From assembly GCA_030651475.1 (NCBI GenBank), contig JAUSEW010000027.1, forward strand, positions 1 to 41,552: 41,552 bases of DNA, in the 5' to 3' direction. The translations under genes were made by a program, and so were the position numbers. Below the pieces are notes generated by a model that saw nothing but the letters and a program-made list of their open reading frames with translations, searched no databases and was not told where the DNA came from. The DNA is from Candidatus Levyibacteriota bacterium. Lineage in GTDB: Bacteria; Patescibacteriota; Microgenomatia; Levybacterales; UBA12049. Below are positions 9,294-41,552 of the stretch, in pieces; the stretch's first letter is position 1; every line of letters starts with the position of its first letter.

Positions 9294-10849
9294 TGAAGAA
9301 ATTATTACTAATTTTACTTGTTATTATTCTGGCTTTGCCATCCATAACTGCACTTTTTCATCAAGGATTTTTCCAAAGCGATGATGGGGAATGGATGATT
9401 ATTCGTTTTTCCGCCTTTCACCAGACTTTAAGAGCGGGAGAATTTCCGGTGCGTTTTTTATCCAGACTTAATTACGAATACGGTTATCCGGTGGCAAATT
9501 TTTTATATCCGGGGTTTATGTATTTGGCTGAAGTACCGAAAATTTTAGGTTTTGGTTTTGTTAATTCAATCAAAATAATTTTTGGTTTGTCCATGGCTGG
9601 TTCTTTGATTTTTGTGTATCTATGGTTATCGAAATTTTTTGATAAATTTTCATCCATTGCAGGTGCTCTTTTGTATCTTTATGCGCCATATCATTTATAT
9701 GATATTTACAAAAGGGGTTCGGTTGGAGAAGTTTTGGCTTTAGCAATTATCCCATTTATTCTTTGGCAAATTGAAAGGAAAAATATTTTTTGGACAAGCA
9801 TAGGGATTGCTCTTCTAATTCTTTCCCATAATACTCTGGCAGTTTTATTTCTTCCCGTGGTTATTCTTTATATGCTTCTTGATATTCTTATTGCAAAAAA
9901 AAGCCAAAAACTATCTACTATCTACTATCTACTATTTACCGTGTTTTCGGGTTTAGGGATTTCTTCTTTTTTCTGGATACCGGCTTTAGCAGATTTGCAA
10001 TATACAGTTTTTTCCCAAACCGTTGTTTCTTCATGGAGCAGTTACTTTGCAGACACAAGTTTAATCGGACTATCAATTATTTTTGTTTTCCTTTTAACGA
10101 TAATTCTTTTTCTTACCAAAAAAATTGCAATTGCCAAACATAGATTAACAATTCTATTTTTCATTATCGGGATTTTGTCTTTATTTTTTTCCGTAGAATT
10201 AAGTAAACCTTTATGGAATTTTCTGCCGGTTTCTTTTATCCAATTTCCCTTCCGTTTTTTATCTCTGACAATTTTATGTGCGGCATTTCTGGCAGCAATG
10301 TCACTTTCATTACTGGCAAAAAATTTAAAAATTATTATGGCAGTAATTCTATTGTTGCTGTTGGGTTTTTCTGCAAAACAATTTATCAGCCCCTCTTTAT
10401 TTTTTGATAAAGGAGATTTGTTCTACGCAACCAATGAAGGGACAACAACAGTAAGGAATGAATACATGCCAAAATGGGTTAAGGCTCCTCCGTCTTTGCG
10501 GCCAAACGCAAAAGTTGAAAATTTAAACGGGAAGGAAAAAATTAATACAACCATTGTTAGTCCGAAACAAATTTCATTTGACGTTTATTTACCAGTATCA
10601 AGAGTAATTCAGGTGAATACGGTTTATTTTCCGGGATGGATGGCGGTTGTTAACGGAGAAAAAGCAGATATAGATTACAGCAATCAGCAAGGTTTAATAA
10701 GATTAAATCTTACTAAGGGACAGAATAATGTTTCAGTTGCGTTTAAAGAGACTCCAATTAGGCTGGCAAGCGATTTTATTTCGTTATTAAGCTTTTGTTT
10801 GTTAATATTGATAAGCTTAAGGCCTAAAAAGATAGTTGTTGTAACTTAA
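9293..10849 (+). CDS. PTPS-related membrane protein, probable GT-C enzyme, variant first-loop motif
   Basis: A 518-residue member of the same family as 3614. The usual THDG is replaced by SDDGEW (29-34), keeping the putative catalytic acid but losing the His, and RW becomes RF (54-55). The YEYGYPVANF segment, a KRGSVGE element and SHN are present. About eleven helices precede an outer domain with YFPGWMAVVNG at about 444-454 and one last helix. A heptamer repeat array (9912-9939) encodes the cytoplasmic loop just before GLGISSFFWIP. Linked upstream by TAATG and followed after one base by the next gene, so it is co-transcribed. Confidence 0.78.
   Translation: MKKLLLILLVIILALPSITALFHQGFFQSDDGEWMIIRFSAFHQTLRAGEFPVRFLSRLNYEYGYPVANFLYPGFMYLAEVPKILGFGFVNSIKIIFGLSMAGSLIFVYLWLSKFFDKFSSIAGALLYLYAPYHLYDIYKRGSVGEVLALAIIPFILWQIERKNIFWTSIGIALLILSHNTLAVLFLPVVILYMLLDILIAKKSQKLSTIYYLLFTVFSGLGISSFFWIPALADLQYTVFSQTVVSSWSSYFADTSLIGLSIIFVFLLTIILFLTKKIAIAKHRLTILFFIIGILSLFFSVELSKPLWNFLPVSFIQFPFRFLSLTILCAAFLAAMSLSLLAKNLKIIMAVILLLLLGFSAKQFISPSLFFDKGDLFYATNEGTTTVRNEYMPKWVKAPPSLRPNAKVENLNGKEKINTTIVSPKQISFDVYLPVSRVIQVNTVYFPGWMAVVNGEKADIDYSNQQGLIRLNLTKGQNNVSVAFKETPIRLASDFISLLSFCLLILISLRPKKIVVVT
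9912..9939 (+). repeat. In-gene heptamer array, TATCTAC x3 plus TATTTAC
   Basis: Three perfect copies of TATCTAC followed by TATTTAC, all inside the coding sequence of the gene at 9293. Three units make 21 bases, or seven codons. The array encodes the loop ahead of the GLGISSFFWIP helix, the same place as the arrays at 11590, 36437 and 41490. Confidence 0.92.
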
Positions 10850-10850
10850 G

Positions 10851-12419
10851 ATGAATTTTTTAAAAAAACATTACGGATTAATTTTAGTTTTGGTTTTATC
10901 TTTTTGGGCAATAAAACCTTTGTTTGCCCAGGGTTTTTTCCCAATGCATGATAATACTCAAGTTGCCAGAGTTTTTGAAATGGGAAAAATGCTCAAGGCG
11001 GGAATGTTTCCCGTTAGGTGGGTTCCGGACTTAGGTTATGGATATGGATATCCGATTTTTAATTTCTACGCTCCCTTAGCTTATTACGTTGGCGGAACAT
11101 TTACGTTAATGGGATTTGATGCGCTTTTAGCTACAAAAATAATGATGGCGTTGGGAGTTATTTTGAGTGGTATCTTCATGTATCTTTTAGCAAGGAATTT
11201 TTTTGGAGAATTGGGCGGGATAGTCTCAGGCTTATTTTACATTTATGCTCCTTATCACGCAGTTGATATCTATGTACGGGGAGATGTGGCAGAATTTTGG
11301 GCATACGCTTTTATTCCCTTGGCGTTTTTTGGTTTTTATAAGGTTTACCGGTTAGCTAGTGTTGTTTGGGGTCATGTCCCCAGTTTCCTTCCCGCCAGTG
11401 CTCCTTTGACTTCGTCAAAGATGCGCGCTGTCGGGAGCCCTCCCACTGGTGCCACCCCATGGATAATCCTCGGAGGGATTGGCTATGCTGGAATAATTTT
11501 GTCCCATAATTTAACTGCTTTGATGGTAACGCCGTTTTTGCTTATTGTCTGTTTGTTATTTATTATTTTATCGAAGAAAGAAACTCGTCTGCATACTACA
11601 TACTGCATACTATTTACTGCCATTTTGGGTTTGGCGATTTCTGCTTTTTATTGGCTGCCGGCACTTTCGGAAATGAAATACACTAATGTTTTATCGCAAA
11701 TCGGCGGAGGAGCAGATTTCCGTGATCATTTCGTTTGTCTTTCTCAACTTTGGACAAGTCCTTGGGGCTTTGGCGGTTCCGCAAAAAACTGTATCGATGG
11801 AATGTCTTTTATGATAGGCAAACTACACATTCTCTCTGCATTATCCATAATTCCTATTTCGCTTTATCTAGGAGCCAAGCGCAAATACTTTAATAATATA
11901 TATTATTTAAGTATTTTCAGCATTGCGGGTTTTATTATTGCTATTTTTTTAATGCTTAATCTGTCGAAATTTTTATGGGAAGCAATTCCATTTATGTCTT
12001 TTTTTCAATACCCGTGGAGATTTCTAATTATGGTTTCATTTTTTTCTTCCATACTTTCCGGAGCAATCGTTGTTCTTTCATCTCAATTCAAAATAAAACC
12101 TTATTTTACGGCATTCCTGTTAGTATTTTTTCTTTTGTTTTTCAATTTCAAGCTTTTCGTTCCTCAGACTATTTTTCCGTCAACCGCAAGCGATTTTACA
12201 AATGAAAAAGCTCTAAAATGGACAGCGTCTAGAATATCGGACGAATATTTACCTTCTAATTTCAGGAAACCCAAGTCAGAAAAGGAGATTGCAAAAAATC
12301 CTATTCCGTTTAAAGAAACTAGGCTGGAAAAGGCTTCAAATATAGTCTCTTTTATTGGCATTTTAGCTTTGATTATTGGTATAATCTTTGTTACGAATAA
12401 AAAATTACGCTATGAGTAA
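10851..12419 (+). CDS. PTPS-related membrane protein with in-frame insertion and reduced C-terminal domain
   Basis: A 522-residue member of the PTPS-related family. It has MHDN (32-35), RW (56-57), LGYGYGYPIFNF (61-72), VRGDVAE (142-148) and SHN (218-220). Two departures stand out. Residues about 169-203 form an extra Pro/Ser-rich loop with no counterpart in the paralogues; it is encoded by a GC-rich palindromic element (11355-11459). The outer C-terminal domain with the PGW motif, present in three paralogues here, is missing: a short linker runs straight into PFKETRLEKASN and the last helix, as if about 80 residues were deleted. A heptamer array lies at 11590-11617. The reading frame is intact, so it is probably expressed, but activity may differ. 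Confidence 0.76.
   Translation: MNFLKKHYGLILVLVLSFWAIKPLFAQGFFPMHDNTQVARVFEMGKMLKAGMFPVRWVPDLGYGYGYPIFNFYAPLAYYVGGTFTLMGFDALLATKIMMALGVILSGIFMYLLARNFFGELGGIVSGLFYIYAPYHAVDIYVRGDVAEFWAYAFIPLAFFGFYKVYRLASVVWGHVPSFLPASAPLTSSKMRAVGSPPTGATPWIILGGIGYAGIILSHNLTALMVTPFLLIVCLLFIILSKKETRLHTTYCILFTAILGLAISAFYWLPALSEMKYTNVLSQIGGGADFRDHFVCLSQLWTSPWGFGGSAKNCIDGMSFMIGKLHILSALSIIPISLYLGAKRKYFNNIYYLSIFSIAGFIIAIFLMLNLSKFLWEAIPFMSFFQYPWRFLIMVSFFSSILSGAIVVLSSQFKIKPYFTAFLLVFFLLFFNFKLFVPQTIFPSTASDFTNEKALKWTASRISDEYLPSNFRKPKSEKEIAKNPIPFKETRLEKASNIVSFIGILALIIGIIFVTNKKLRYE
11355..11459 (+). repeat. Palindromic GC-rich element inserted in frame
   Basis: About 105 bases (35 codons), clearly more GC-rich than the gene. 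It holds TGGGG-TCATGT-CCCCA (11367-11382), a perfect hairpin CTTTGAC-TTC-GTCAAAG (11404-11420), and nested outer arms CCAGTG (11395-11400)/CACTGG (11444-11449) with GCTCC (11400-11404)/GGAGC (11434-11438). The nested structure looks like a REP- or MITE-like palindromic unit. Boundaries are estimated by comparison with paralogous proteins. Confidence 0.65.
11590..11617 (+). repeat. In-gene heptamer array, T(G/A)CATAC x3 plus TATTTAC
   Basis: Units TGCATAC, TACATAC, TGCATAC and TATTTAC in exact seven-base register. It sits in the same loop as the array in the preceding gene and ends with the same TATTTAC unit, although the core heptamer differs. Confidence 0.88.
12355..12385 (+). promoter_or_regulatory. 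Internal promoter before the GT2/flippase block
   Basis: TTGGCA (12355-12360), a 19-base spacer and an extended -10, TGGTATAAT (TG at 12377-12378, TATAAT at 12380-12385). It lies inside the 3' end of the upstream gene and would give a leader of about 20 bases before the ATG at 12412. The long spacer makes it moderate, but the extended -10 is strong. Confidence 0.45.
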
Positions 12420-13125: not shown

Positions 13126-14566
13126 CATAGCGTCAGTTACAAAAAGATCAATTAAGGGGGTTTTAGCATTGTCTTCCAGATCTTTTGTCATACAGCTAAT
13201 AAATTTCGTATCTAATTTGTTATTGACAATTTATTTATCGCCTTCGGTCTTTGGCGTGTTTTTTGTGGTTTCCGCAGCAATTGCATTTCTTTCCTACTTT
13301 TCCGATATCGGTCTGGCAGCAGCACTTATTCAGAAAAAAGAGCCTATTACGCAAAATGATCTTCGTACAACGTTTACTATCCAACAAGCATTAGTCATAA
13401 TAATTTCCGTGATGGCGTTGTTTTTAACAACCAGTCTTGGATCTTTTTACAATTTAAACAAAGAGGGAGTATTATTGTTTCAAGCTTTAATAATAGCTTT
13501 TTTTCTGTCGTCTCTTAAAACCATTCCCTCAATTCTATTGGAAAGAGAACTGCGTTTTGAAAAATTAGTAATACCTCAAATTATAGAAACTTTATTTTTT
13601 AGCTTGACAGCAGTTTTATTGGCAATTAAAGGATTTGGGATTACAAGTTTTACGATAGCAGTTTTGGCAAGAGGATTATCCGGCCTTATCGCCATTTATA
13701 TTATTAGACCATGGAAAATAGAGCTTGGATTTTCTAAAGAGATAGCAAGAAGACTTTTATCCTTTGGCGTACCTTTTCAAACAAATAGTTTTTTAGCATT
13801 AATAAAAGACGATTTGCTGATAGCTTATCTTGGTAAAGTTTTGCCTCTTGCTCAAGTGGGATACATAGGGTTTGCGCAGAAATGGGCATTTATGCCGCTT
13901 CGATTAGTGATGGATAATGTTATCCGCGTTACTTTTCCATCTTTTTCCAGATTGCAAACGGAAAAAGAGATACTTAAGAAAGCGATTGAGAAATCAATCT
14001 TTGCGGCATCGTTCTTTATTTTTCCATCCCTTGTCGGTCTAGTAGTTCTAGCTCCTTATTTTATTCACATCATACCAAAATATATTAAATGGGAACCTGC
14101 TGTTTTTTCTATTTCCTTTTTTGCAATTAATGCTTTATTCTCGTCAATTTCGACCCCTCTTACGAATGCATTAAATGCGATAGGTAAAATAAAAATTACT
14201 CTTTATCTAATGATATTCTGGACAGTATTGACGTGGATATTGACTCCGGTTTTTATAATTATTTTCGGTTTTAACGGTGTTTCTATGGCATCAGCATTAA
14301 TAGCAGTATCGGCAATTTTGGTTGTCTATATAGTAAGAAAATATGTAGATTTCAATGTGGTTCAATCAATAAAGCAACCTGTTGTTTCCTCTTTAATTAT
14401 GGGATTAATAATTTATTTCTTAAGCAAAAGCGTTATACTCAATATCTCTTCGTTAGTAGCGGTAATTATTTTTGGTGCTATACTGTATTTCGGTATAGCA
14501 TTTTTAATAGGAAAGCGGCAAATCCTTTCAGACATAGATCTTATTAAAAAGAATATTGCGCAATAA
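13112..14566 (+). CDS. Wzx-type polysaccharide flippase (MOP superfamily)
   Basis: A 484-residue membrane protein with about 14 hydrophobic helices and no GT motifs. The N-terminus (SSRSFVIQLINFVSN, then LSPSVFGVFFV and DIGLAAALIQKKE) is typical of O-antigen and teichuronic acid exporters. Such proteins flip undecaprenyl-diphosphate-linked repeat units to the outer face. The gene overlaps the upstream GT2 by 14 bases and has AAGGA at 13099-13103, eight bases before the ATG. It is the only flippase in the window and lies next to the GT2 enzymes that would build its substrate. No Wzy polymerase or WaaL ligase is recognisable nearby. Confidence 0.85.
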   Translation: MEEIDIASVTKRSIKGVLALSSRSFVIQLINFVSNLLLTIYLSPSVFGVFFVVSAAIAFLSYFSDIGLAAALIQKKEPITQNDLRTTFTIQQALVIIISVMALFLTTSLGSFYNLNKEGVLLFQALIIAFFLSSLKTIPSILLERELRFEKLVIPQIIETLFFSLTAVLLAIKGFGITSFTIAVLARGLSGLIAIYIIRPWKIELGFSKEIARRLLSFGVPFQTNSFLALIKDDLLIAYLGKVLPLAQVGYIGFAQKWAFMPLRLVMDNVIRVTFPSFSRLQTEKEILKKAIEKSIFAASFFIFPSLVGLVVLAPYFIHIIPKYIKWEPAVFSISFFAINALFSSISTPLTNALNAIGKIKITLYLMIFWTVLTWILTPVFIIIFGFNGVSMASALIAVSAILVVYIVRKYVDFNVVQSIKQPVVSSLIMGLIIYFLSKSVILNISSLVAVIIFGAILYFGIAFLIGKRQILSDIDLIKKNIAQ

Positions 14567-14567
14567 T

Positions 14568-15482
14568 ATGGCTAGGCTTTCTGTTGTCATATCGGCTTTT
14601 AATAGCGAAGATAAAATAAAAGACTGTTTAGAATCTGTTAAATGGGCGGATGAGATTATCTTCGTTGATAATTCGTCAACGGATAAAACTCTAGATATTA
14701 CAAAAAAATATACTTCAAAAATCTTCATTAAAACGAACAATAAAATGCTTAATATTAACAAGAATTTTGGTTTTTCAAAAGCGACGAGCGATTGGATTTT
14801 AAGCTTGGATTCGGATGAAAGAGTTACGCCATCGCTTCGCGACGAAATCAAAAATAAAATATCAAATATCAAAAATGACGATGTGAATGGTTATTGGATA
14901 CCGAGAAAAAACATAATTTTTGGTAAGTGGATGCAGCATACGGGTTGGTATCCTGATCACCAGCTTAGGCTATTTAGGAATGGTAGAGGCAGATTTAAAG
15001 AAAAACATGTTCACGAGATGATAGAAGTAGAAGGGGAAACAGCCTATTTAAATAATAATATTGTTCATTATAACTACGATACGATTATCCAATTTTTATC
15101 TAAAATGGCAAATATTTACGCGCCGAATGAAGCAGAACAAATGGTTGCCAAAGGATATGTTTTTAGTTGGCGTGATGCCATAAGATTTCCTCTTGGAGAA
15201 TTTTTAAGCAGATTTTTTGCCAGGGAGGGGTATAGGGATGGTTTTCATGGCTTAATGCTTTCAATTCTGATGGCATTTTATCATTTTATCGTTTTCGCAA
15301 ATGTATGGGAAATGCAGAAATTTAATGATCCTACAGACGATAAGCTTTTGGATGAGGTGGGAAGTGAGCTTGATAAATCACATAAGCAAATACGATTCTG
15401 GTCCTCAAAAGAGCGCATAAAGCAAATAAAAAACCCATTTAAAAAAGCGTTAAGCATTCTGATTGATAAGTTTCGTTGGTAA
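14568..15482 (+). CDS. GT2 glycosyltransferase, WaaE/KdtX-like
   Basis: A 304-residue cytosolic GT-A enzyme. VDNSSTD (33-39) and LDSDER (80-85, D81 and D83 as metal ligands) form the nucleotide-sugar site; KHVHE (146-150) is the conserved downstream motif of the WaaE/KdtX beta-glucosyltransferase-like group. The ATG at 14568 directly follows the previous stop; a TTG at 14556 would overlap it and add four residues. A seven-base repeat array (14845-14879) encodes the segment after the DER motif, the same place as in paralogues at 16399 and 37451. The C-terminal region includes a hydrophobic stretch (about 228-243) that may bind the membrane. Acceptor probably a lipid-linked glycan. Confidence 0.84.
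   Translation: MARLSVVISAFNSEDKIKDCLESVKWADEIIFVDNSSTDKTLDITKKYTSKIFIKTNNKMLNINKNFGFSKATSDWILSLDSDERVTPSLRDEIKNKISNIKNDDVNGYWIPRKNIIFGKWMQHTGWYPDHQLRLFRNGRGRFKEKHVHEMIEVEGETAYLNNNIVHYNYDTIIQFLSKMANIYAPNEAEQMVAKGYVFSWRDAIRFPLGEFLSRFFAREGYRDGFHGLMLSILMAFYHFIVFANVWEMQKFNDPTDDKLLDEVGSELDKSHKQIRFWSSKERIKQIKNPFKKALSILIDKFRW
14845..14879 (+). repeat. In-gene heptamer array, ATATCAA type
   Basis: Five units in seven-base register: AAATCAA, AAATAAA, ATATCAA, ATATCAA, AAATGAC. The array lies in coding sequence just after the metal-binding DER motif of a WaaE-like GT2. Confidence 0.75.
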
Positions 15483-15484
15483 AG

Positions 15485-19761: not shown

Positions 19762-19767
19762 AAAATA

Positions 19768-19818: not shown

Positions 19819-19824
19819 GGATAC

Positions 19825-20898: not shown

Positions 20899-23180
20899 AA
20901 AAGTTAATGCCTGTTGGTTTTATTTTATTAATAGTTATTGTATTTTTTTGGCAATTTTTCTTAAAAGGTTTTCTTCCTATCCCATCAGATACGATAATCG
21001 GTCTTTACCATCCGTTTCGGGATTTATATGCCAAAGATTATCCGAACGGAATTCCATTCAAAAACTTTTTAATTACAGATCCTGTTCGGCAGCAATACCC
21101 ATGGAAAGAATTAGCAATTTGGTCCGAGAAAAAGATAGAACTTCCTCTTTGGAATCCGTACAGTTTTGCAGGAACGCCACTCTTAGCGAACATGCAATCT
21201 GGCGCATTTTACCCTTTGAATATTCTATTTTTTATTTTGCCTTTTAACATAGCTTGGAGTGTTTTAATTTTCTTACAGCCTTTATTGGCTGGAGTATTTC
21301 TTTACATATATCTTAGAAACTTGAGAATGAATACGTGGGCCAGCGCCATTGGATCCATAGTCTTTGCATTTTCAGGATTCTCTACGTCTTGGCTTGAGTG
21401 GGGAACCATAGTTAATACTGCACTTTGGCTGCCTTTAATATTGCTATCCACAGACAAGATAGCATCAGGTATCAAAAATAGAAAGGTTTTTGCTTGGAGT
21501 TTGGTTTATCTATTTTCTTTGATTTTTGCTTTTTTTGCCGGTCACCTTCAAACTTTTTTTTACCTATTTATTTTTTCATCTATTTACTTTTTTGCTAAGT
21601 GGATGCAAGTTGGTTGGCAAAAAAAAATATTATTTTTATTCTTTATTCTTAATTCATTATTCATAATCTTTACTGCTGTTCAGTGGATTCCTACTCTTCG
21701 GTTTATTCTTTTGTCAACCAGAAATGTTGACCAAGTTGGTTTTAACAATCCAGGATGGTTTGTTCCCTGGCAAAATCTCATACAATTCATAGCTCCCGAT
21801 TTTTTCGGTAACCCATCCACTCTTAACTATTGGGGAATATGGAATTATGGAGAGTTTATTGCATATGTGGGCATATTGCCGTTAATAATGGCAATATTTG
21901 CTATATTTTTTCGTCATGATAGAAAGACATTGTTTTTCGGAACAGCGTTTTTTCTTTCCCTGATTTTCGCATTACCGACAATATTTGCCAAAATTCCTTT
22001 TACCCTTAATGTGCCTTTCGTTAGCACTTCTCAACCGACTCGACTTTTATTCATAACAGACTTTTCCTTAGCTATTCTTTCCGCTTTGGGATTTGATTAC
22101 TTTATTCGGTCAAAGAAAAGAGGAATGATGTATCCGTTAATTTTTATTGCCTTCATGCTATTGGGACTTTGGGTTTTTGTTTTTTTTGGAAATGAAGCTG
22201 CAAAAATTGTTTCGGCAGAAAATATATCTGTTGCCAAGCGAAATCTTCTTTTCCCAACATTAATACTGATCGTTTCTGCGACTTTATTATTTAGTCTAAT
22301 ACGGTTTCCAAAACTCCATAAACATTTCACTATAATGATATATATTATTATAGTGGCAGTTATAGCATTCGACTTACTAAGGTTTTCTTTTAAATTTACA
22401 CCTTTTACAGATAAAAATTATCTATTTCCTAACACGCGTGCTATTTCTTTTCTTCAGGAACAGAAAGGAGAATTTAGAATAATGACAACCAACTCGCAAA
22501 TTCTTCCTCCTAATTTTTCTTCCATATATAGATTGCAGAGCGTAGATGGTTATGACCCTTTATATCTGCGAAGATATGCGGAATTGATTGCCGCATCCGA
22601 AAGAAAAAAGGCAGATATCAATCCTCCATTTGGATTCAATAGAATTATTACTCCGCATAACTATGATTCAAAAATAATGGATTTACTAGGTGTTAAATAT
22701 GTCTTAAGCTTTTCAGATTTGGATTCTCCAAAGTTTAAGAAAGTTTTCCAGGAAGGTCAAACTAGGGTTTACGAAAATAAAGATTTTCTGCCAAGAGCAT
22801 TTTTTGTAGGGAAAACTATATTTTCTACAAGCAAAAATACAACAATAAAATTTATGTTTGACGATAATTTCGATCCAATAAATATGGCGATAGTTGAAGA
22901 CTCAAGCTTTCCGTATGTAAAAGGGAGGAGCGATTGGGGAATTGGCAAGGCAGAAGTTACTTATTATTCCCCAAACAAAATTATTATAGATACAGATAAC
23001 CAAAAGGAAGGATTTCTGGTTCTTGCTGATAATTTTTACCCAACATGGCACGTAAAGATTGACGCTAATGGAGATTCAATAAATACTGAACAAAAAATTT
23101 ACTTAACGAATTTTACCCTACGTGGTGTAATCGTGCCAAAAGGAAAACATACGATTTTGTTTTACGATACATTACTATGA
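20895..23180 (+). CDS. YfhO-family membrane glycosyltransferase, C-terminally truncated
   Basis: A 761-residue polytopic protein. First outer loop: SDTI (D32), D62-x3-Q-x-YPWK (YPWK 68-71), LPLWNPYSFAG and LLANMQSG. About twelve helices precede the outer domain. The end differs from the other YfhO proteins: the PGW motif reads YPTW (about 713), and the protein stops at KGKHTILFYDTLL, just where the others continue into a PxxFRLG segment and a last helix. The final membrane anchor is therefore missing. The stop overlaps the next start by four bases, so the truncation is built into the operon rather than being a frame error in mid-gene. Confidence 0.83.
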   Translation: MKKLMPVGFILLIVIVFFWQFFLKGFLPIPSDTIIGLYHPFRDLYAKDYPNGIPFKNFLITDPVRQQYPWKELAIWSEKKIELPLWNPYSFAGTPLLANMQSGAFYPLNILFFILPFNIAWSVLIFLQPLLAGVFLYIYLRNLRMNTWASAIGSIVFAFSGFSTSWLEWGTIVNTALWLPLILLSTDKIASGIKNRKVFAWSLVYLFSLIFAFFAGHLQTFFYLFIFSSIYFFAKWMQVGWQKKILFLFFILNSLFIIFTAVQWIPTLRFILLSTRNVDQVGFNNPGWFVPWQNLIQFIAPDFFGNPSTLNYWGIWNYGEFIAYVGILPLIMAIFAIFFRHDRKTLFFGTAFFLSLIFALPTIFAKIPFTLNVPFVSTSQPTRLLFITDFSLAILSALGFDYFIRSKKRGMMYPLIFIAFMLLGLWVFVFFGNEAAKIVSAENISVAKRNLLFPTLILIVSATLLFSLIRFPKLHKHFTIMIYIIIVAVIAFDLLRFSFKFTPFTDKNYLFPNTRAISFLQEQKGEFRIMTTNSQILPPNFSSIYRLQSVDGYDPLYLRRYAELIAASERKKADINPPFGFNRIITPHNYDSKIMDLLGVKYVLSFSDLDSPKFKKVFQEGQTRVYENKDFLPRAFFVGKTIFSTSKNTTIKFMFDDNFDPINMAIVEDSSFPYVKGRSDWGIGKAEVTYYSPNKIIIDTDNQKEGFLVLADNFYPTWHVKIDANGDSINTEQKIYLTNFTLRGVIVPKGKHTILFYDTLL

Positions 23181-24130: not shown

Positions 24131-24843
24131 AATTATCAATTATTATCCCTGTTTTCAATGAAGAGAAGACGATTAGTGAAGTATTAAACAAAGTTAATGA
24201 CGTTAATATTCCTGGGGTCGATAAAGAAATTATCGTTGTTGACGATGGGTCGACCGATGCGACGGCATCGGCAATTCAAACTTCAAAATTAAAAATTCAA
24301 AATTTGGAATATATAAAACATCAGAAGAATCAAGGGAAAGGTGCGGCGGTAAGAACAGGTATAAAAAATGCTACAGGCGATTACATCGTAATTCAGGATG
24401 CAGATCTTGAGTACGATCCAAAAGACATATCAAGACTAATCAAGGTTGTAGGAAATGGAAAATTAAAAGCTGTTTATGGTACAAGACTTAGGCGTTTACC
24501 TAATTTTAATAGAGACGAAAGGACTTTGGGTTTTCTGTTGCACTATTTAGGAAATAAATTTTTAAGTTTTTTAACGAGCATACTATATGGGCAATGGATT
24601 ACAGATATGGAAACAGGATATAAGCTTTTTCCTAAAGCCATAGTTGAAGATATGAAGCTTAATTCTAAAAGGTTTGATTTTGAGCCGGAAATAACAGCAA
24701 AGATCCTAAAGAAAAGGATTCGGATAATTGAGGTGCCGATCGCAACTAATCCTCGGGGATATAACGAGGGTAAAAAGCTAAATACAATTAAAGATGGTAC
24801 AATTGCACTATATACATTGCTAAAGTATAGATTTTGCGATTAA
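24127..24843 (+). CDS. GT2 dolichyl/polyprenyl-phosphate mannose synthase-like enzyme
   Basis: A 238-residue GT-A enzyme without C-terminal membrane helices. Motifs: VDDGSTD (38-44), GKGAAVRTG (70-78), QDADLEYDP (90-98; D91 and D93 as ligands), DMETGYKLF (160-168) and FDFEPE (173-178). These are the DPM1/Ppm1 family marks, so it probably makes a polyprenyl-phosphate hexose used by the GT-C enzymes. Directly downstream are three such enzymes. Residues about 49-61 are encoded by a seven-base repeat array (24273-24307) between the first two motifs. The ATG overlaps the previous stop as ATGA. Confidence 0.87.
   Translation: MKLSIIIPVFNEEKTISEVLNKVNDVNIPGVDKEIIVVDDGSTDATASAIQTSKLKIQNLEYIKHQKNQGKGAAVRTGIKNATGDYIVIQDADLEYDPKDISRLIKVVGNGKLKAVYGTRLRRLPNFNRDERTLGFLLHYLGNKFLSFLTSILYGQWITDMETGYKLFPKAIVEDMKLNSKRFDFEPEITAKILKKRIRIIEVPIATNPRGYNEGKKLNTIKDGTIALYTLLKYRFCD
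24273..24307 (+). repeat. In-gene heptamer array, AATTCAA type
   Basis: Five units in register: AATTCAA, ACTTCAA, AATTAAA, AATTCAA, AATTTGG. It encodes a Lys/Ile/Gln-rich loop in the DPM1-like GT2, between two conserved motifs. Confidence 0.75.
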
Positions 24844-30855: not shown

Positions 30856-32481
30856 ATGGTAAGTTTTAAAAATACAGCGTATTTATTTTTCATATTAATC
30901 ATTGCTTTCTTTTTAAGGTTTTATCAGCTGGGAAGTAATCCTCCGTCTTTAACTTGGGATGAAGCCGCATGGGGGTACAATGCGTATTCGTTGGGGATTG
31001 ACGGAAGAGATGAGTTTGGTAAATTTTTGCCTATTGACCATCTGGAATCCTTTGGAGATTTCAAACCTCCGGTTTATGCATATTTAGATATAATTCCCGT
31101 TAAAATCTTTGGACTTACGGAATTTGCTACGAGATTTCCATCAGCGCTTTTTGGCGTCCTAACGATTCTTATAACATACTTTTTGGTTAAAAGAATATTT
31201 TATAAATCTGAAAATGCTAATATTTATGGTATTTTGACATCGTTTATCCTAGCAATTTCCCCATGGCACATTATGCTTTCGCGCGCTGCATTTGAAGCAA
31301 ATATTGCCACATTTTTTATAATTACGGGAGTATGGCTATTTTTAGGAGGAGTTCAAGAAAGAAAATGGTATTTATTATTTTCTGCAATATCTTTTTCCTT
31401 CTCAATATATACATTTAATACGGCAAGAGTTGTTGCCCCTCTTATTATTTTGATGTTGGGTATAGGATTCTGGAAAATACTTTTAGAGAAATATACACAA
31501 ACTATAATGGCAGTAATTATAGGAATATTATTATTGTTGCCTACTTTGAAATTCTTATTGTCTCCGCAAGCAAGTTTACGCTTTAAAGAGGTAAATATTT
31601 TTTCCGAAAGTGGAGTTGTCGTATCCGCAAATCAGCAAATAGCCAACGATAATAATTCTTCTTGGTCAAAAATAATTCACAATAGGCGTTTAGCTTACGG
31701 CGTCGAATACATTCGACATTATTTTGATAATTTAAATCCAAGTTTTTTATTTATTAAAGGAGACGGTAATCCTAAATTTTCTACCCAAACAGTTGGCGAG
31801 ATGTACTTATGGGAATTGCCTTTTTTCATAATGGGTATTTTATTCTTATTTAAGAAGAGGGAGGGATATTGGTGGATTATACCATTATGGCTAATTTTAG
31901 GAATAGTGCCTGCTGCTACAGCACGGGAAACTCCGCATGCCCTTAGGATAGAAACGACATTGCCTACATTTCAAATTTTTACAGCAATAGGATTTTTAAC
32001 AGTTATAAATTTACTTAAAAAATACAAAAAATTGGCAATATCTATTTTATCGTTTGTTTTATTTATAAATTTTATGTATTTCTATCGCGATTACCTAGTT
32101 CATTATCCTAGAGAATTTTCCGGTGAGTGGCAGTACGGATATAAAAACTCCATAAGCTATGTAGAGAGCCAAAAAGATAATTTTGACCAGATAGACATTA
32201 CAATGGCGTTAGGTAGGCCATATATCTATTATTTGTTCTATACAAAGAAGAATCCAAAAGATTATAGGAAAGAGGCTATTATACAAAGAGAGGTTTTTGG
32301 CTTTGTTAACGTAAATGGTTTTGATAAATACAGATTTGCAAAGAACTTGTCAGATATAGATAACAGAAACAAGAAAGTTCTTTATATTGGTATTCCAAAT
32401 GGAGTTCCCAGTAGCGCCAATGTACTTAAAACTTTTTATTTACTTAATGGAGATAAGGCCTTAGTAGCATATACATTATGA
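30856..32481 (+). CDS. ArnT-like GT39 membrane glycosyltransferase (first of three tandem paralogues)
   Basis: A 541-residue polytopic GT-C protein. First outer loop: TWDEAAWGYNAYS (33-45; D35-E36) and GRDEFG (50-55). SPWHIMLSR, an ETPHALR segment and outer-domain elements such as YLFYTKKNP follow. The conserved outer motif reads FDKYRFAKN, weaker than in the next two. I chose the ATG at 30856; a TTG at 30841 would add five residues and lies next to the predicted transcription start. It overlaps the next paralogue by ATGA. Probable substrate: a polyprenyl-phosphate sugar. Confidence 0.82.
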   Translation: MVSFKNTAYLFFILIIAFFLRFYQLGSNPPSLTWDEAAWGYNAYSLGIDGRDEFGKFLPIDHLESFGDFKPPVYAYLDIIPVKIFGLTEFATRFPSALFGVLTILITYFLVKRIFYKSENANIYGILTSFILAISPWHIMLSRAAFEANIATFFIITGVWLFLGGVQERKWYLLFSAISFSFSIYTFNTARVVAPLIILMLGIGFWKILLEKYTQTIMAVIIGILLLLPTLKFLLSPQASLRFKEVNIFSESGVVVSANQQIANDNNSSWSKIIHNRRLAYGVEYIRHYFDNLNPSFLFIKGDGNPKFSTQTVGEMYLWELPFFIMGILFLFKKREGYWWIIPLWLILGIVPAATARETPHALRIETTLPTFQIFTAIGFLTVINLLKKYKKLAISILSFVLFINFMYFYRDYLVHYPREFSGEWQYGYKNSISYVESQKDNFDQIDITMALGRPYIYYLFYTKKNPKDYRKEAIIQREVFGFVNVNGFDKYRFAKNLSDIDNRNKKVLYIGIPNGVPSSANVLKTFYLLNGDKALVAYTL

Positions 32482-34112
32482 GTAAGAAGATTACGTTCAT
32501 TTTGCTTATAGGCGTTATAGTTTTAGCTTCGATATTAAGACTGTGGCAGTTAGGTAAAGTGCCGCCATCTCCTGATTGGGATGAAGCCTCTTTAGGCTAT
32601 AATGCCTATTCGATAATGCAAACAGGACGGGATGAATATGGAAAATTTTTACCTGTAGTTCTTAGGTCGTTTGATGATTACAAACCGGCTTTATATGCCT
32701 ATTTCGTAATCCCATTTATAAAATTGGTAGGGCTTAATATTTATGCAGTGCGCTTACCTGCTGTAATTTTTGGTATTCTTGCTGTTTTAGCCACATTTTT
32801 ATTAGTAAAAGAGCTATTATCCAACGTAAAAACAGCTCTTCTTGCATCATTTTTTATGGCAATTTCTCCTTGGCATTTGCAGTTTTCCAGAATAGCATTC
32901 GAATCAGGCGTTGGTATGGCATTTAATATATTTTCTGCGCTTTTTTTCATTAAAGGTCTCAAAAAGCCGCTTTATCTCTCGCTATCCTTTGCCTTAATGA
33001 GTTTAAATCTTTATATATATCAGAGCGAAAAAGTCTTTACTCCTATTTTAGCTGTAATTCTTATTATTGTTTTTAGAAAACAACTTTTTTCCATCTCTAA
33101 AAAATATTTAATGGCAGCATTGATTATTGGTGCAATAATTTCTTTGCCAATAATTAATTTTACTTTTACAGATAAGGAGGCATTGGCAAGAGCAAAAGGC
33201 GTAAGTGTGTTCGCAGATTCAACACCCCTTCTTAAAGAAAATGTGCAAAAGATAATTGAGGATAAAAAAAACAATGATTTCATAGGTCTGGTTTTAGATA
33301 ATAGAAGAATAGTTTTTGCCAAAACCACTGTATCGGGTTATCTTTCGCATTTTGATTTAAATTGGCTTTTCATCACGGGTGATATTGCTCGTCATCATGC
33401 TCCCAATATGGGCCTTTTGTATCTGTGGGATTTACTTTTTCTTTTTATAGGGATATTTGTTTTATTGTTTGGTAAATTCGATAAAAAGGTAAAGTTTCTG
33501 TTATTCCTTTGGTTTTTGGCGGCGCCAATACCGGCCTCCATAACAAGCGGAGTTCCTCATGCGGTGAGAACGCTTAATTTCTTGCCGACATTTCAAATAT
33601 TTATTGCAATTGGCGTGCTTTTTGCTGCGCAAAAAATTTCAAATTTCAAATTTCAGATTAAATATCCAATATATGTTCTCGTCCTTTTATTTTTTATATT
33701 TAATTTTTCGTATTACTTAAATCAATATTTTATTCAACAAAATTATTTTAATGCAAAAGAATGGCAATATGGCTATAAAGATGCGATTTCGATAGTAAAA
33801 AAAGTTGAAAATAATTATAAAAAAATAGTTGTTTCCAATCAACCCCCAATGGATCAATCTTACATATTTTTCCTTTTTTATCTTGAATATCCCTCTTCTT
33901 TGTATCAGAAAGAAGCGCAATATTCCTCCGGCGGTTTTCGGGAAAACCATGCATTTGGAAAATTTGAATTCCGTCCTATTGAGTGGAGCAAGGAAAATAG
34001 AAATGGAGACACTTTATATATCGGCAGGCCAAACCATTTTCAAGATTCAGCTAACGTTTTAGCTAGAATAAATTATCCAGATGGGCAGACGGCAATAGAA
34101 TTAGTTGAATAG
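32478..34112 (+). CDS. ArnT-like GT39 membrane glycosyltransferase (second tandem paralogue)
   Basis: A 544-residue polytopic GT-C protein. First outer loop: DWDEASLGYNAYS (33-45; D35-E36), GRDEYG (50-55). SPWHLQFSR, GVPHAVR, and the outer-domain signature FFLFYLEYPSSLYQ with GKFEFRPIEW follow. It is closest to the next gene: both have NLYIYQSEKVF or LYTYQSEKIF after the second helix group, and matching outer domains. A heptamer array, AAATTTC x3 plus AGATTAA (33634-33661), encodes the cytoplasmic loop before a late helix. It overlaps the previous gene by ATGA; the next starts directly after its stop. Confidence 0.83.
   Translation: MSKKITFILLIGVIVLASILRLWQLGKVPPSPDWDEASLGYNAYSIMQTGRDEYGKFLPVVLRSFDDYKPALYAYFVIPFIKLVGLNIYAVRLPAVIFGILAVLATFLLVKELLSNVKTALLASFFMAISPWHLQFSRIAFESGVGMAFNIFSALFFIKGLKKPLYLSLSFALMSLNLYIYQSEKVFTPILAVILIIVFRKQLFSISKKYLMAALIIGAIISLPIINFTFTDKEALARAKGVSVFADSTPLLKENVQKIIEDKKNNDFIGLVLDNRRIVFAKTTVSGYLSHFDLNWLFITGDIARHHAPNMGLLYLWDLLFLFIGIFVLLFGKFDKKVKFLLFLWFLAAPIPASITSGVPHAVRTLNFLPTFQIFIAIGVLFAAQKISNFKFQIKYPIYVLVLLFFIFNFSYYLNQYFIQQNYFNAKEWQYGYKDAISIVKKVENNYKKIVVSNQPPMDQSYIFFLFYLEYPSSLYQKEAQYSSGGFRENHAFGKFEFRPIEWSKENRNGDTLYIGRPNHFQDSANVLARINYPDGQTAIELVE
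33634..33661 (+). repeat. In-gene heptamer array, AAATTTC x3 plus AGATTAA
   Basis: Three perfect AAATTTC units and one degenerate unit inside the tandem GT39 gene at 32478. It encodes ISNFKFQIK, a cytoplasmic loop before a membrane helix. Confidence 0.9.
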
Positions 34113-35778: not shown

Positions 35779-35785
35779 ATAAAAT

Positions 35786-37438
35786 GTGAAAATTTTTAAA
35801 TCTAAATTAGTAATCTTATTTTTACTTACTATATTATCAATTATTCCTCTTTTGGATCTTTTTAGGTCGGGATTGCCTCTGACTCATGATGGTCAAGACC
35901 ATGTTGCAAGAATTGCCAACTTTTATCAAAACCTAAGGGAAGGAAATATAATTCCTCGATGGGCAGGAAATCTTAACTGGGGATACGGACATCCCATATT
36001 GGAATTTCTTTATCCTTTACCCTCATATTTAGCTTCATTATTTCATTTTTTTGGATTTACATTGGTTGATAGCGTAAAGTTGGTTTTTGGCACATCATTT
36101 GTTCTAAGCGGTCTGGCAATGTATATTTTTATTAAAGAATTGCTGAATGATGATGAAGCAGCATTTTTTGCAAGTGCGCTTTACATAATTGCTCCCTATA
36201 GATTTGTTGATTTATATGTCCGCGGGGCTATCGGTGAGCATGTTGCATTTATTTTTCCGCCCCTTATATTTTATTTCTTAATTAAGCTTTCGAAAAATTT
36301 TTCCTATTGGTATACGTTGGGAGGATCACTTTCATTGGCCGGTCTTATTCTATCTCATAATGCAATAACGCTTATGTTTCTGCCCTTGATACTGATATGC
36401 ATTTTTTATCTAATTTTCCAATGCTCCCATAAGAAATACTTTATACTTAGCTCTTTATATTTAATACTTCTTGGGTTTGGGTTATCTGCTTTCTTCTGGA
36501 TACCGGCATTTACGGAAGGAAAGTATACCCTTAGAGACATTGTTACGGGAGGAGGGGAATACGCAAGAAGTTTTGTAACGTGGAAGGATTTTTTTCTTTC
36601 AGCCTGGAGCTATGGAGGAGCGATAACCCTTAGCAAGCAAATAGGCATTATTCATTGGGTGAGCGTATTCGGCAGCGCTATTGCAGCTTATCATTTGTAT
36701 AAAAAAAGAAATAAATTATGGATTGTATGCTTAGGAAGCATTCTTATTTTTTGGGTAACTCTATTTTTAATGACGTCTTCCTCTAATCCAATTTGGCAAA
36801 CAATTACAACCCTTCAGAAGTTTCAGTTTCCATGGAGGTTCCTTTCCGTTACGGTCTTTTTAAGCGCATTGATGGGAGGGATTTTATTGTCTTTAATTTC
36901 AAATAAATATAAAAAGGTAGCATTGATAATACTTGTTGTAGGTTTATTGGTAGCAAATAAAGATTATTGGCATGCAAATGATTATCTGCAAAAGGAAGAG
37001 AGTTTTTATAGCGGTATCTATGATGGCACCACGGATACTGGCGAGAGCGCTCCTATATGGTCAATAAGGTTTATGGAAAAAAGGCCAAAAGCACAGCTTG
37101 AAGTAATTGACGGAGATGCAAAAATAAAAGAACTTGATAGGAAATCAACTTATCATAAATATCAAGTACAAGTTAATAAAAATACTCTGTTTGGAGAAAA
37201 TACCCTGTATTTTCCAGGCTGGGAAATAAAAGCAAACGGAAAGCCTCTTAATATAGAATTTCAGAATATGCAGTATAGGGGAATTATGACTTTTAGTTTA
37301 ACCAAAGGAAGTTATCTGGTTGAAGCAGAATATAAAGAGACCAAGCTAAGACTAATATCAGACATTATTTCTTTTACTGTACTTTTTGTCGCTATCTTTC
37401 TTTTGGTTTTTAAGTTTGTAAAACCAAAGCTTTCCTAG
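35786..37438 (+). CDS. PTPS-related membrane protein, probable GT-C enzyme
   Basis: A 550-residue member of the PTPS-related family. Marks: THDGQDHVAR (33-42), RW (58-59), LNWGYGHPILEF, RGAIGEH and SHN, then about eleven helices, an outer domain with YFPGWEIKANG at about 474-484 and a last helix. The start is GTG at 35786; the nearby ATG at 35784 is out of frame and meets a stop at once, and GTG gives the family's usual short N-terminus. A decayed heptamer array (36437-36471) encodes the loop before GFGLSAFFWIP. It follows the GT39 tandem array after eight bases. Confidence 0.8.
   Translation: MKIFKSKLVILFLLTILSIIPLLDLFRSGLPLTHDGQDHVARIANFYQNLREGNIIPRWAGNLNWGYGHPILEFLYPLPSYLASLFHFFGFTLVDSVKLVFGTSFVLSGLAMYIFIKELLNDDEAAFFASALYIIAPYRFVDLYVRGAIGEHVAFIFPPLIFYFLIKLSKNFSYWYTLGGSLSLAGLILSHNAITLMFLPLILICIFYLIFQCSHKKYFILSSLYLILLGFGLSAFFWIPAFTEGKYTLRDIVTGGGEYARSFVTWKDFFLSAWSYGGAITLSKQIGIIHWVSVFGSAIAAYHLYKKRNKLWIVCLGSILIFWVTLFLMTSSSNPIWQTITTLQKFQFPWRFLSVTVFLSALMGGILLSLISNKYKKVALIILVVGLLVANKDYWHANDYLQKEESFYSGIYDGTTDTGESAPIWSIRFMEKRPKAQLEVIDGDAKIKELDRKSTYHKYQVQVNKNTLFGENTLYFPGWEIKANGKPLNIEFQNMQYRGIMTFSLTKGSYLVEAEYKETKLRLISDIISFTVLFVAIFLLVFKFVKPKLS
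36437..36471 (+). repeat. Decayed in-gene heptamer array, TACTTTA type
   Basis: Units TACTTTA, TACTTAG, CTCTTTA, TATTTAA, TACTTCT in seven-base register. Imperfect, but in the same protein loop as the arrays at 9912, 11590 and 41490. Confidence 0.6.
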
Positions 37439-37444
37439 TATCAT
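37416..37444 (+). promoter_or_regulatory. Leaderless-type promoter
   Basis: TTGTAA (37416-37421), a 17-base spacer and TATCAT (37439-37444), six bases before the ATG at 37451. It straddles the stop codon of the upstream gene. Confidence 0.55.
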
Positions 37445-37450
37445 CATCTT

Positions 37451-38224
37451 ATGAACAAAACTCTTTCTGTTGTTCTGGCAACTTTCAACGAAGAAAAGAA
37501 TTTAGATTCATGTCTTACATCGGTTGAGGGCATAGCTGATGAGATAATTGTCGTGGATGGTGGTTCTAGAGACAAAACTATAGAAATTGCCAAAAAACAT
37601 AATGCGCGGATTCATATAACTACTAATCCGCAAAACTTCCACATCAACAAACAAATGGCAATAGATATGGCAACTTGCGACTGGATATTGCAACTTGATG
37701 CTGATGAAAGAGCTAGTCCAGAGCTTGCAAAAGAAATAAAGGAAAAAATTAGAAATTTAAAATTAGAAATTAGAAATTCCGTAAATGGCTACTGGATTCC
37801 TAGAAAAAATTGGTTTTTAGGAAGATTTCTGATGAAAGGCGGGGTGTATCCAGATTACACTTTAAGGTTATATAGGAGAGGAAAAGGAAGACTTCCTCAA
37901 AAAGACGTTCATGAGCAGGCGGTTGTTGGGGGAAGGGTTGAATATCTGACTAATTCGCTTACTCATATGGCTGACCCAACTTTTTCTCGTTATTTATCAC
38001 GGTTCAGAAGATATACGGATTTTATTTCAAAACAATATAAAGACAAAAAACTAGGGAAAGATTACTTGACTATGGTAAAATATATTCTGATACTTCCAAT
38101 ATGGTGGTTTTTTACAACTTACATACGGCATAAGGGATTTATGGATAGTTGGCAAGGATTCGTGTTTGCCTTTTTCTCGGCTTTAAGATTTCCAATTTCG
38201 TATTTAAAATATATAAAGGAGTAA
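37451..38224 (+). CDS. GT2 glycosyltransferase, WaaE/KdtX-like
   Basis: A 257-residue GT-A enzyme, paralogous to 14568 and 16399. Motifs: VDGGSRD (35-41), LDADER (82-87; D83 and D85 as ligands) and KDVHE (151-155). A heptamer array (37747-37781) encodes the IRNLKLEIRN segment after DER, as in both paralogues. A hydrophobic stretch near 210-222 may bind the membrane. It starts six bases after a -10 box, so it may be read from its own promoter. GalE follows ten bases downstream and could supply its nucleotide sugar, for example UDP-galactose, but the sugar is not proven. Confidence 0.84.
   Translation: MNKTLSVVLATFNEEKNLDSCLTSVEGIADEIIVVDGGSRDKTIEIAKKHNARIHITTNPQNFHINKQMAIDMATCDWILQLDADERASPELAKEIKEKIRNLKLEIRNSVNGYWIPRKNWFLGRFLMKGGVYPDYTLRLYRRGKGRLPQKDVHEQAVVGGRVEYLTNSLTHMADPTFSRYLSRFRRYTDFISKQYKDKKLGKDYLTMVKYILILPIWWFFTTYIRHKGFMDSWQGFVFAFFSALRFPISYLKYIKE
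37747..37781 (+). repeat. In-gene heptamer array, AATTAGA type
   Basis: Five units in register: AATTAGA, AATTTAA, AATTAGA, AATTAGA, AATTCCG. Located after the DER motif of a WaaE-like GT2, matching the arrays at 14845 and 16674. Confidence 0.85.
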
Positions 38225-38234
38225 AATTTTTACT

Positions 38235-39742: not shown

Positions 39743-40881
39743 AATCCGTTTTTATTTTTTTATACGTATTTTTCCTACTTTGTTTTTTAATTTTTTCTTA
39801 TCTATTTATAGACCCAAATTTTTTATATATCCATAATATTTACTCGGAATTTTCTCTTTCCAAGCGACAATTAACAACAGTTTTGTATATATTGTTTATT
39901 TTCGTATTGTTTGCATTCTATTTTCTTCTCTTGCGATTAGGTAAAAATAGCTCGTTTGATTTTAAAGATTTTAGATTGTATTTAATCCTTACAATAGCAT
40001 TATTACTTTTTTCTTACCCGGCAATGCTTTCCTATGACATTTTTAACTATACTGCAACTTCTAAAGTTTTATTTTTTTATCACGAAAACCCTTACATAAT
40101 TATGCCTATTGAATTTACAAAAGATCCATTACTTCTTTTTATGCATGCCGCCAATAAAACCGCTTTATATGGTCCGGTTTGGATATTATTAACAGGAATT
40201 CCTTATCTGTTAGGTTTTGGAAATTTCCTGCTAACGCTTTTTAATTTTAAACTTTTTATAGTTATTTTCTATATAGGAACAATATCTATCATTTGGAAAA
40301 TATCAAAAAATTTTACTACCCTTTTGTTATTTGCCCTAAATCCTTTGGTAATTATAGAAACTTTGTTGGGCGGGCACAATGATATAGTTATGATATTTTT
40401 TGCGCTTTTGGCTTTTTATTTATTGATCAAGAAGAAAATATTTTTGGCAATTATTTTTATAATACTATCTATACTTATAAAATATGCAACTTTATTCTTA
40501 CTTCCGATTTTTATATATGTTTCTATAAAGAGAATACGAAAAACAGAAATAAAATGGGATAGCGTATTCTCTTATTCGGCGATATTGATGATAATAGCAT
40601 TTTTACTTTCACCAATTAGGGAAGAGATTTATCCATGGTATGCCATATGGTTTCTGCCATTCGCGTTTCTTGTCCCAAAAAATAAAATTTTGCTATATCT
40701 TTCCATATCGTTTTCTTTTGGTTTATTATTACGTTATATTCCATTTATGTTCCTTGGTACTTATTTCGGACCTACGCCTTTGATTAAAATTTTGGTAACC
40801 TTTATTCCATCCGTTGCAGTTCTTTTATATTTTTCTATAAGAGCAAAGCTATGGCAAAAAAATTTTTCCCAATACTTTTAG
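39739..40881 (+). CDS. GT-C membrane glycosyltransferase, MptA/MptB-like
   Basis: A 380-residue polytopic protein and clear paralogue of the gene at 908. Shared marks: SYDIFNY (98-104; D100 a candidate catalytic acid), ENPYI (116-120), LYGPVW (143-148), NPLVIIE followed by GGHNDIVM (H213-D215), and PWYAIWFLPF near the end. By analogy with MptA/B it would extend an outer glycan from a polyprenyl-phosphate hexose. ATGA overlap with the upstream gene and a 31-base overlap with the downstream gene indicate one transcript. Mannose is not proven. Confidence 0.78.
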   Translation: MKSVFIFLYVFFLLCFLIFSYLFIDPNFLYIHNIYSEFSLSKRQLTTVLYILFIFVLFAFYFLLLRLGKNSSFDFKDFRLYLILTIALLLFSYPAMLSYDIFNYTATSKVLFFYHENPYIIMPIEFTKDPLLLFMHAANKTALYGPVWILLTGIPYLLGFGNFLLTLFNFKLFIVIFYIGTISIIWKISKNFTTLLLFALNPLVIIETLLGGHNDIVMIFFALLAFYLLIKKKIFLAIIFIILSILIKYATLFLLPIFIYVSIKRIRKTEIKWDSVFSYSAILMIIAFLLSPIREEIYPWYAIWFLPFAFLVPKNKILLYLSISFSFGLLLRYIPFMFLGTYFGPTPLIKILVTFIPSVAVLLYFSIRAKLWQKNFSQYF

Positions 40882-41552
40882 TTGTTATATTTTCCATTAT
40901 CGCTGGTTTTTCACTTATCCATAGGGGATTACCCCCTACTCATGATGGAGAATATCATATTATAAGATTTTATGAGTTTGATAAAGCTTTAAAGGATGGT
41001 AATTGGTATCCTCGTTGGGCGCCGGATTTAAATAACGGATATGGAGTGCCGCTTTTTAATTACGTTTATCCTTTGCCAAACTACATTGCTTCCTTTTCTC
41101 ACATTTTTGGTATAAGTTTCATAGATGCTTTTAAGCTTGAGATGTTTTTTGCTTTTATAATTGGGGGAATATTTTTTTATCTTTGGAGCAAGGAGTTTTG
41201 GGGTACATTGGGAGGCATAGTATCTTCAATATTTTATTCGTTTTCTCCTTACCATTTCGTAGATGTATATATAAGGGGTTCCGTAGGAGAGGTATGGGCG
41301 CTTGCTTTTTTCCCGGCCTTTCTATGGTCGATTACAAAATTCTTTAGAGAAAGACGAAATAAATATATTGCAATTTCAAGTATATTTTTGGCTTTGATTA
41401 TATTTTCTCATAATATCTTAGCTTTAATGTTTTTTGCTTTTTCTACTTCTTACATTATTCTCCTAATAGGTATAAATAAAAATCGTAAATACTTAATACT
41501 TAATACTTTCTACATAATACTAATTGGACTTGGATTATCGTCAATATTTTGG
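40851..41552 (+). CDS. PTPS-related membrane protein, probable GT-C enzyme (3' end beyond window)
   Basis: An open frame of 234 codons runs off the window end without a stop. It starts at the ATG at 40851, overlapping the upstream gene by 31 bases. Family marks: THDGEYH (30-36), RW (55-56), NNGYGVPLFNY (61-71), IRGSVGE and SHN, then the loop and GLGLSSIFW where the window stops. About seven helices are present, so roughly half of a 500-550-residue protein. A heptamer array (41490-41517) encodes the loop before the last helix, as in three paralogues. The C-terminal PGW domain, if any, is outside. Confidence 0.8.
   Translation, partial: MAKKFFPILLVVIFSIIAGFSLIHRGLPPTHDGEYHIIRFYEFDKALKDGNWYPRWAPDLNNGYGVPLFNYVYPLPNYIASFSHIFGISFIDAFKLEMFFAFIIGGIFFYLWSKEFWGTLGGIVSSIFYSFSPYHFVDVYIRGSVGEVWALAFFPAFLWSITKFFRERRNKYIAISSIFLALIIFSHNILALMFFAFSTSYIILLIGINKNRKYLILNTFYIILIGLGLSSIFW
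41490..41517 (+). repeat. In-gene heptamer array, TACTTAA type
   Basis: Units TACTTAA, TACTTAA, TACTTTC, TACATAA in register, inside the partial PTPS-related gene. Same loop as the arrays at 9912, 11590 and 36437. Confidence 0.82.

Follow-up and report, generated by a model that had tools for sequence, protein, structure and literature searches.

Heptanucleotide arrays in PTPS-related genes of a Candidatus Levybacteria genome: probable members of a clade-wide, mostly intragenic minisatellite population

Why should several paralogous membrane-protein genes carry short seven-base tandem repeats at the same site, each spelled with a different heptamer? The question is raised by the PTPS-related genes B, C, D and E of a 41,552-nt DNA stretch (the window), which represents bases 1-41552 of a 252,992-base contig from a Candidatus Levybacteria genome (Microgenomates; 910,733 bases, 96% complete). 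An earlier note on this DNA had described one array in each of the four genes (features in Table 1). On balance, the four arrays appear to be a small sample of a genome-wide and clade-wide population of heptanucleotide minisatellites that are mostly intragenic. The sequence scanned comprised 881 kb of the window's genome, the whole 762,465-base comparison genome G006 (matching CP066685.1) and parts of several further genomes. Arrays were called at two stringencies: permissive scoring, which yielded 127 arrays, and near-perfect arrays, called across 2.57 Mb of Levybacteria sequence.

The period spectrum, a count of lag-p self-match runs for periods 2 to 30, is dominated by seven and its multiples. 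In the window's genome there are 76 arrays at period 7, 50 at period 14 and 21 at period 21, whereas periods not divisible by 7 have 0-7 each, and a fourth-order Markov control sequence contains none. The same preference is seen in G006 (63 arrays at period 7, 0-8 at non-multiples), in other members of the family (62, with 0-5 at other periods) and in loci from more than 30 further Levybacteria (28, with 0-8). The exact 28-mer (AATTTTC)4 is present in 20 of 73 family genomes, with 39 matches, and in 18 of 240 sampled genomes of the phylum. Tandem heptamers thus occur far above both chance and other periods, which places them in the class of heptanucleotide simple sequence repeats (SSRs). No such arrays were found in 89 kb of loci from Gottesmanbacteria and other Microgenomates, so array abundance varies among lineages.

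Within the PTPS-related genes, the arrays were assessed by synonymous resampling: codons were redrawn among synonyms according to the genome's own codon usage, and the lag-7 (or lag-14) score was recomputed. Array B has a lag-7 score of 20 (P about 1e-4) and array E one of 14 (P about 0.0015). Array C is more degenerate, scoring 10 at lag 7 (P about 0.005) and 12 at lag 14 (P about 0.0005). Because resampled sequences seldom match such scores, the residues alone cannot explain these three arrays. As an explanation of the whole set, chance or a convergence of codons on Tyr, Leu and Ile is refuted and retains next to no credibility, since the genome-wide excess at period 7 is more than tenfold and the reversed 28-mer has 0 matches in the 73 family genomes. 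It does fit array D alone, for which P is 0.06-0.14 at lag 7 and 0.01 at lag 14, and which is not reported by Tandem Repeats Finder (TRF) at score 30. This stretch is not separable from chance by itself and is possibly a decayed array. Of the four arrays described earlier, three are therefore real and one is marginal.

All four stretches had been located correctly, just upstream of a helix of the type G(L/F)G(I/L)S(S/A)FFW in PTPS_related genes. Calling this site a loop was imprecise, however. In the AlphaFold2 model of protein B (mean predicted local distance difference test score, pLDDT, 88.5), residues 207-217, encoded by the array, make up the first half of a predicted membrane helix (203-223), right after a turn of two residues; the site would therefore be better called a turn and helix start. 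Genes B, D and E exceed the gathering cut-off of PF10131, as does paralogue A, which has no array and serves as an internal control; C lies below the threshold yet aligns to the family. For a possible common descent of the paralogue arrays the signs are mixed: TAC phases, read by hand, agree between B and C and between D and E, whereas in the tree the partner of B is E (support 0.76) and D groups with other sequences.

The arrays are not a peculiarity of PTPS-related paralogues: in these tiny uncultured bacteria, stretches of some 32 nt of this kind are found in about a hundred genes. In the window's genome, 95 of the 127 permissively scored arrays fall within open reading frames (ORFs), and among the near-perfect arrays 125 of 135 are coding, with 5 intergenic and 5 at edges. 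Their hosts include GMP synthase, a Met-tRNA formyltransferase-like protein, Mur ligases, pseudouridine synthase, RecJ, phosphoglycerate kinase, a MurG-type glycosyltransferase, TsaD, thymidylate synthase, a SpoU methylase and a penicillin-binding protein. Five further arrays of the same kind lie in other genes of the window itself. These hosts also bear on the proposal that gain and loss of units switches the frame of PTPS-related genes and so varies surface glycosylation, by phase variation or by diversifying a loop. In its favor, seven is not divisible by three, the membrane proteins that carry arrays B, C and E belong to a glycosyltransferase cluster, and heptanucleotide slippage does switch genes elsewhere (Haemophilus HMW1A, PMC8262952). 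The proposal is nevertheless highly improbable: arrays of this kind reside in essential soluble enzymes, so they are not confined to surface or antigen genes that the cell could spare, their copy number is low and keeps closely to 4-5, and no frame-altering length variant was seen among orthologues. Judging from the known roles of these families, a frame switch in the housekeeping hosts should be lethal. Like the arrays, phase-variable contingency loci such as Haemophilus HMW1A consist of a tandem unit that is not a multiple of three and is able to slip, but they have many more copies, vary among isolates and reside in surface genes, whereas the Levybacteria arrays are short, constant in length and found in essential genes too.

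Array length is confined to a narrow range. In the window's genome there is a sharp peak at 30-35 nt, or 4-5 units, and the near-perfect arrays have their mode at 31-34 nt, with none above 40 nt. A few arrays reach 52-53 nt. The arithmetic is suggestive: an array of four units extended by a few bases of homology, whether from chance or from a seed, would measure 31-34 nt, the smallest in-frame gain is three units (21 nt), and three more units on 31-34 nt would fit the arrays of 52-53 nt. A gain of 21 nt, as three units onto an 11-nt seed, was considered as the only source of the 32-nt mode; it fits the lengths and was rejected because no clean 21-nt step occurs among congeners. Traces of the reading frame are visible inside the arrays. 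Since 7 and 3 share no common factor, a stop-containing unit that is repeated without variation must bring a stop into frame. In arrays of such units within ORFs, a variant unit falls exactly where the stop would be, as can be read off CTAAACG CTAAACG CTATACG CTAAACG, which encodes LNAKRYTLNA, and AAATTAAAAATTAAAAATGAAAAATTA, which encodes KLKIKNEKLKI.

Comparison with G006 rests on 399 reciprocal best pairs with a median amino-acid identity of 56%. Of 45 arrays that can be placed in such pairs, 18 overlap the partner's array at the aligned position, against a mean of 1.4 and a maximum of 5 in 200 permutations with random placement. The overlapping arrays of G006 mostly use a different unit. 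At the array B site its orthologue has GTGCTAC/AAGCTAC units, at the array C site CTATACG units, and opposite array E (CTATACG)4.5 at equal position with gap 0. Conservation of position, unit length and copy number while the letters change, noted earlier among the paralogues, thus extends to the orthologues. Another pair with gap 0 reads EYGPASL[KMGNGKWEMGN]KLP (AAATGGG) and EYGPARL[EILNLKSQISN]SLP (AAATCTT/C). The heptamer register is best or tied in 10 of 10 gapless pairs, with agreement of 4.9/7 in register and 2.2 out of register. Mismatch is 0.31 between orthologous arrays, 0.35 in the flanks and 0.10 between adjacent units of an array; the last value is biased down because arrays were selected for low internal mismatch, although both partners are still internally uniform while differing from each other. 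In 16 of 19 pairs the units are closer within an array than between orthologous arrays.

Substitutions shared by every unit are also found among close relatives, five congeneric genomes (G053-G057, mostly 72-77% nucleotide identity) compared over about 27 kb. At L217:10652, every unit is AAATTTC in G054 and AAATCTC in G055 with no gap, while G053 and G057, shorter by 15 nt, have no array. At L217:13861, AAATTCG in G054 corresponds to AAATTCA in G053, again in every unit and with gap 0. L205:2993 has AATTTTC in G054 and AAATCTC in three relatives, and L224:2443 has three different heptamers in three species. In two congeners a 31-nt array of G054 (L224:2174-2204) faces unrelated sequence of equal length, as though other letters had been written over the stretch at constant length; in a third it faces a decayed array. 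These arrays keep a fixed length while one word gives way to another in every unit, which is concerted evolution. The inference that arrays with different heptamers cannot descend from a common ancestor does not follow, since orthologous arrays change all their units while keeping register and length, so that different letters do not prove separate ancestry. At some sites (L217:280, L217:1468, L205:5278) one species has a palindromic element instead; such sites therefore also tolerate insertions. To this extent the idea of an insertion hotspot was apt: some array sites do host varied insertions.

The explanation that we favor, with some reserve, is that these are long-lived heptanucleotide minisatellites of seven-base, slippage-like origin, internally homogenised and kept in frame at tolerant sites. 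Arrays of about four to five units would be built by mutation with a marked preference for steps of seven bases, the simplest agent being replication slippage or template switching over a few bases of homology, perhaps aided by the absence of MutS. The survivors would be in-frame, stop-free versions at places where the protein tolerates the change, and this filtering may account for the lock on length. Such an array could then outlive speciation at constant length as a largely neutral sequence, while its units homogenise one another by slippage or out-of-register conversion, so that a base change would spread through all units and the word would drift. The bias towards seven must be mutational rather than selected, because periods of six and nine suit the reading frame better and yet are not enriched. 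No match to MutS_V was found in the 96% complete genome; 11 of 14 control genomes have one.

Several observations weigh against this explanation. MutS in model organisms handles loops of up to about four bases and mismatch repair hardly repairs 7-nt loops; loss of MutS alone cannot, therefore, set the number seven, and may instead raise slippage overall without fixing the step. Arrays of 30-34 nt that are identical even in an internal variant turn up in genes that are unrelated, as are their flanks, LNAKRYTLNA being found in four genes and KLKIKNEKLKI at four places. Units are shared between loci in excess: in the window's genome 65 of 88 arrays belong to shared classes (letter-shuffled mean 37, maximum 52), and in G006 42 of 71 (mean 20, maximum 30). 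Dispersed copies and shared units are the main weakness of the minisatellite explanation. Local slippage does not give this sharing, to which copying between loci, or strong selection for a small number of stop-free words, must contribute. Where an array is present in one congener and absent from another, net differences are 15 nt (L217:10652), 0 (L224:2174) and 24 nt (L224:1721), with no clean +21 nt step. Clean intergenic arrays number just 5, too few to separate a frame-locked length from an intrinsic size, and the agreement in register could come partly from repeated birth at a conserved seed.

The same dispersed copies suggest a mobile mini-element of about 31 nt, made of heptamers and inserting in frame into genes as Rickettsia palindromic elements (RPEs) do. 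Two arrays of 31-34 nt have four exact copies each, with common internal variants and unrelated flanks. Excess unit sharing fits as well, several AATTTTC arrays of G006 begin and stop in one phase, and other dispersed elements sit at some orthologous sites where relatives carry arrays. Like the arrays, RPEs are small dispersed DNA tolerated in frame in proteins, conserved enzymes included; they are, however, palindromes of 100-150 nt rather than heptamer arrays of about 32 nt. A mobile element is an unlikely source, if one to be taken seriously, because each genome holds at least 40 distinct units, orthologous arrays share a register and carry one identical change across all units, and neither a target-site duplication nor a constant insert size was seen (the congeners' net differences given above). 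No mobilising enzyme was identified. A further reading is a dedicated, active process with a seven-base step, such as an unusual polymerase or templated copier, that would repeatedly rewrite fixed sites of 30-35 nt in many genes, essential ones included, and so diversify loops and helix ends genome-wide without changing their length; we regard this as a rather doubtful alternative.

Conservation of position, period and length while the letters change might also mean that the periodicity itself is functional, with five to six sites at seven-base spacing acting in DNA or RNA, for example through binding of a cold-shock-like or other oligomeric protein. Direct heptamer repeats are described as ligands of CspB in PMC4679880, which speaks for this reading. 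It is very unlikely all the same, given that the units are very diverse, that the array is missing altogether from many orthologues, and that unit positions do not divide consistently into conserved and variable ones (0.781 against 0.787 for shuffled phases). The last comparison also rules out a binding-box unit of four conserved and three variable positions. A -1 slippery heptamer was rejected as well: AAATTTC matches XXXYYYZ and most units do not.

Heptanucleotides have been called the favored long bacterial repeat since 2007, with no accepted cause. The survey of that year, which found them over-represented in bacteria, and a seven-base polymerase step proposed for bacteria generally are both reported in PMC4692102 and PMC4679880. 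As described there, the heptanucleotide SSRs of Xanthomonas and Nostoc (GGGNATC) and of Beggiatoaceae (TAACTGA) likewise have seven as the favored long unit, several units per genome, indels in 7-nt steps and polymerase slippage as the proposed origin; they lie mostly between genes, a single unit dominates, and copies run to as many as 26. The Levybacteria arrays, unlike these, are mostly coding and in frame, with at least 40 units per genome, 4-5 copies and concerted change between orthologues. The heptanucleotide short tandemly repeated repetitive sequences (STRRs) of Calothrix and Anabaena are likewise dispersed short tandem heptamers with several units within one genome. These repeats of filamentous cyanobacteria are described as mostly intergenic, and we know of no coding residence, length lock or orthologue-wise unit turnover among them. 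Searches of open-access papers found no report of such arrays in the Candidate Phyla Radiation (CPR). Coding residence that extends to essential genes, a fixed length of 4-5 units and concerted turnover between orthologues thus appear to be new with respect to the known heptanucleotide class. The Levybacteria genome offers a natural test of why seven is preferred, and its fixed-length concerted arrays one of how tandem repeats homogenise without changing length. Many apparent low-complexity inserts of CPR proteins (KIQNSKFKIQ-like peptides) would then be products of a process at the DNA level rather than of protein function, with consequences for how CPR sequences are aligned and annotated and their structures predicted.

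Table 1. PTPS-related genes and heptamer arrays of the window
Feature	Position	Strand	Description	Evidence
Paralogue A	3614..5248	+	PTPS_related, without array	Pfam PF10131, lag-7 score
Gene B	9293..10849	+	PTPS_related membrane protein, 518 aa, carries array B	Pfam PF10131, E 7.8e-10
Array B	9910..9939	+	(ACTATCT)4.3, residues KLSTIYYLLFT, start of predicted helix 203-223	TRF score 53
Gene C	10851..12419	+	Next to B in tandem; alignment and tree place it in the family of B	No Pfam match at 1e-3
Array C	11589..11620	+	TGCATAC/TACATAC/TGCATAC/TATTTAC, better described by period 14	TRF period 14, score 50
Heptamer array	14845..14873	+	In ORF 14556-15482	TRF and lag-7 scan
Heptamer array	21635..21664	+	In membrane-protein ORF 20895-23180; array at same place in G006	Lag-7 scan, orthologue alignment
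Heptamer array	24275..24304	+	In ORF 24127-24843; G006 orthologue also with array	Lag-7 scan, orthologue alignment
Heptamer array	33634..33659	+	(AAATTTC)3.7, peptide ISNFKFQI, in PMT-like ORF 32478-34112	TRF, Pfam, lag-7 scan
Gene D	35786..37438	+	PTPS_related	PF10131, E 2e-11
Putative array D	36437..36471	+	Degenerate	Lag-7 score 6
Heptamer array	37746..37778	+	In ORF 37451-38224	TRF and lag-7 scan
Gene E	40851..41552	+	PTPS_related, runs on to 42485 in the contig, full ORF 544 aa	PF10131, E 4e-14
Array E	41488..41521	+	(AATACTT)4.9	TRF, lag-7 score, resampling

In an Rfam scan of the whole window, a tRNA was the sole match. Two reverse transcriptase genes of the genome exceed the Pfam cut-off (G000 C6:49135-49755, L294, and C27:652-1272, L293), and the neighbourhood of L294, where there are a possible glycine-rich target ORF and a small helical one, resembles a diversity-generating retroelement. 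Such a retroelement was considered as the cause of the arrays and set aside, as nothing ties these genes to the heptamers. Gene C contains two other dispersed sequences. The first is a hairpin element of about 91 nt, GGGGTC...CACCCC (window 11368-11458), in frame and with a predicted fold of -37.9 kcal/mol. It is missing from 16 orthologues and recurs at four further sites of the genome, three of them within called ORFs, and a relative occupies an array site in G056. This hairpin resembles the in-frame palindromic elements of the Rickettsia type and is closer to an RPE than the heptamer arrays are. The second is a near-perfect AT palindrome of about 34 nt, AAATACTTTAATAATATATATTATTTAAGTATTT (window 11883-11916), which is found again at several other places in the genome, in both ORFs and intergenic regions. 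Two orthologues of gene B (L077 and L085) have small in-frame inserts elsewhere in the protein with recurrent-looking peptides, CHPERSEGS and SPACRQAG; several kinds of short insert therefore enter PTPS-related genes.

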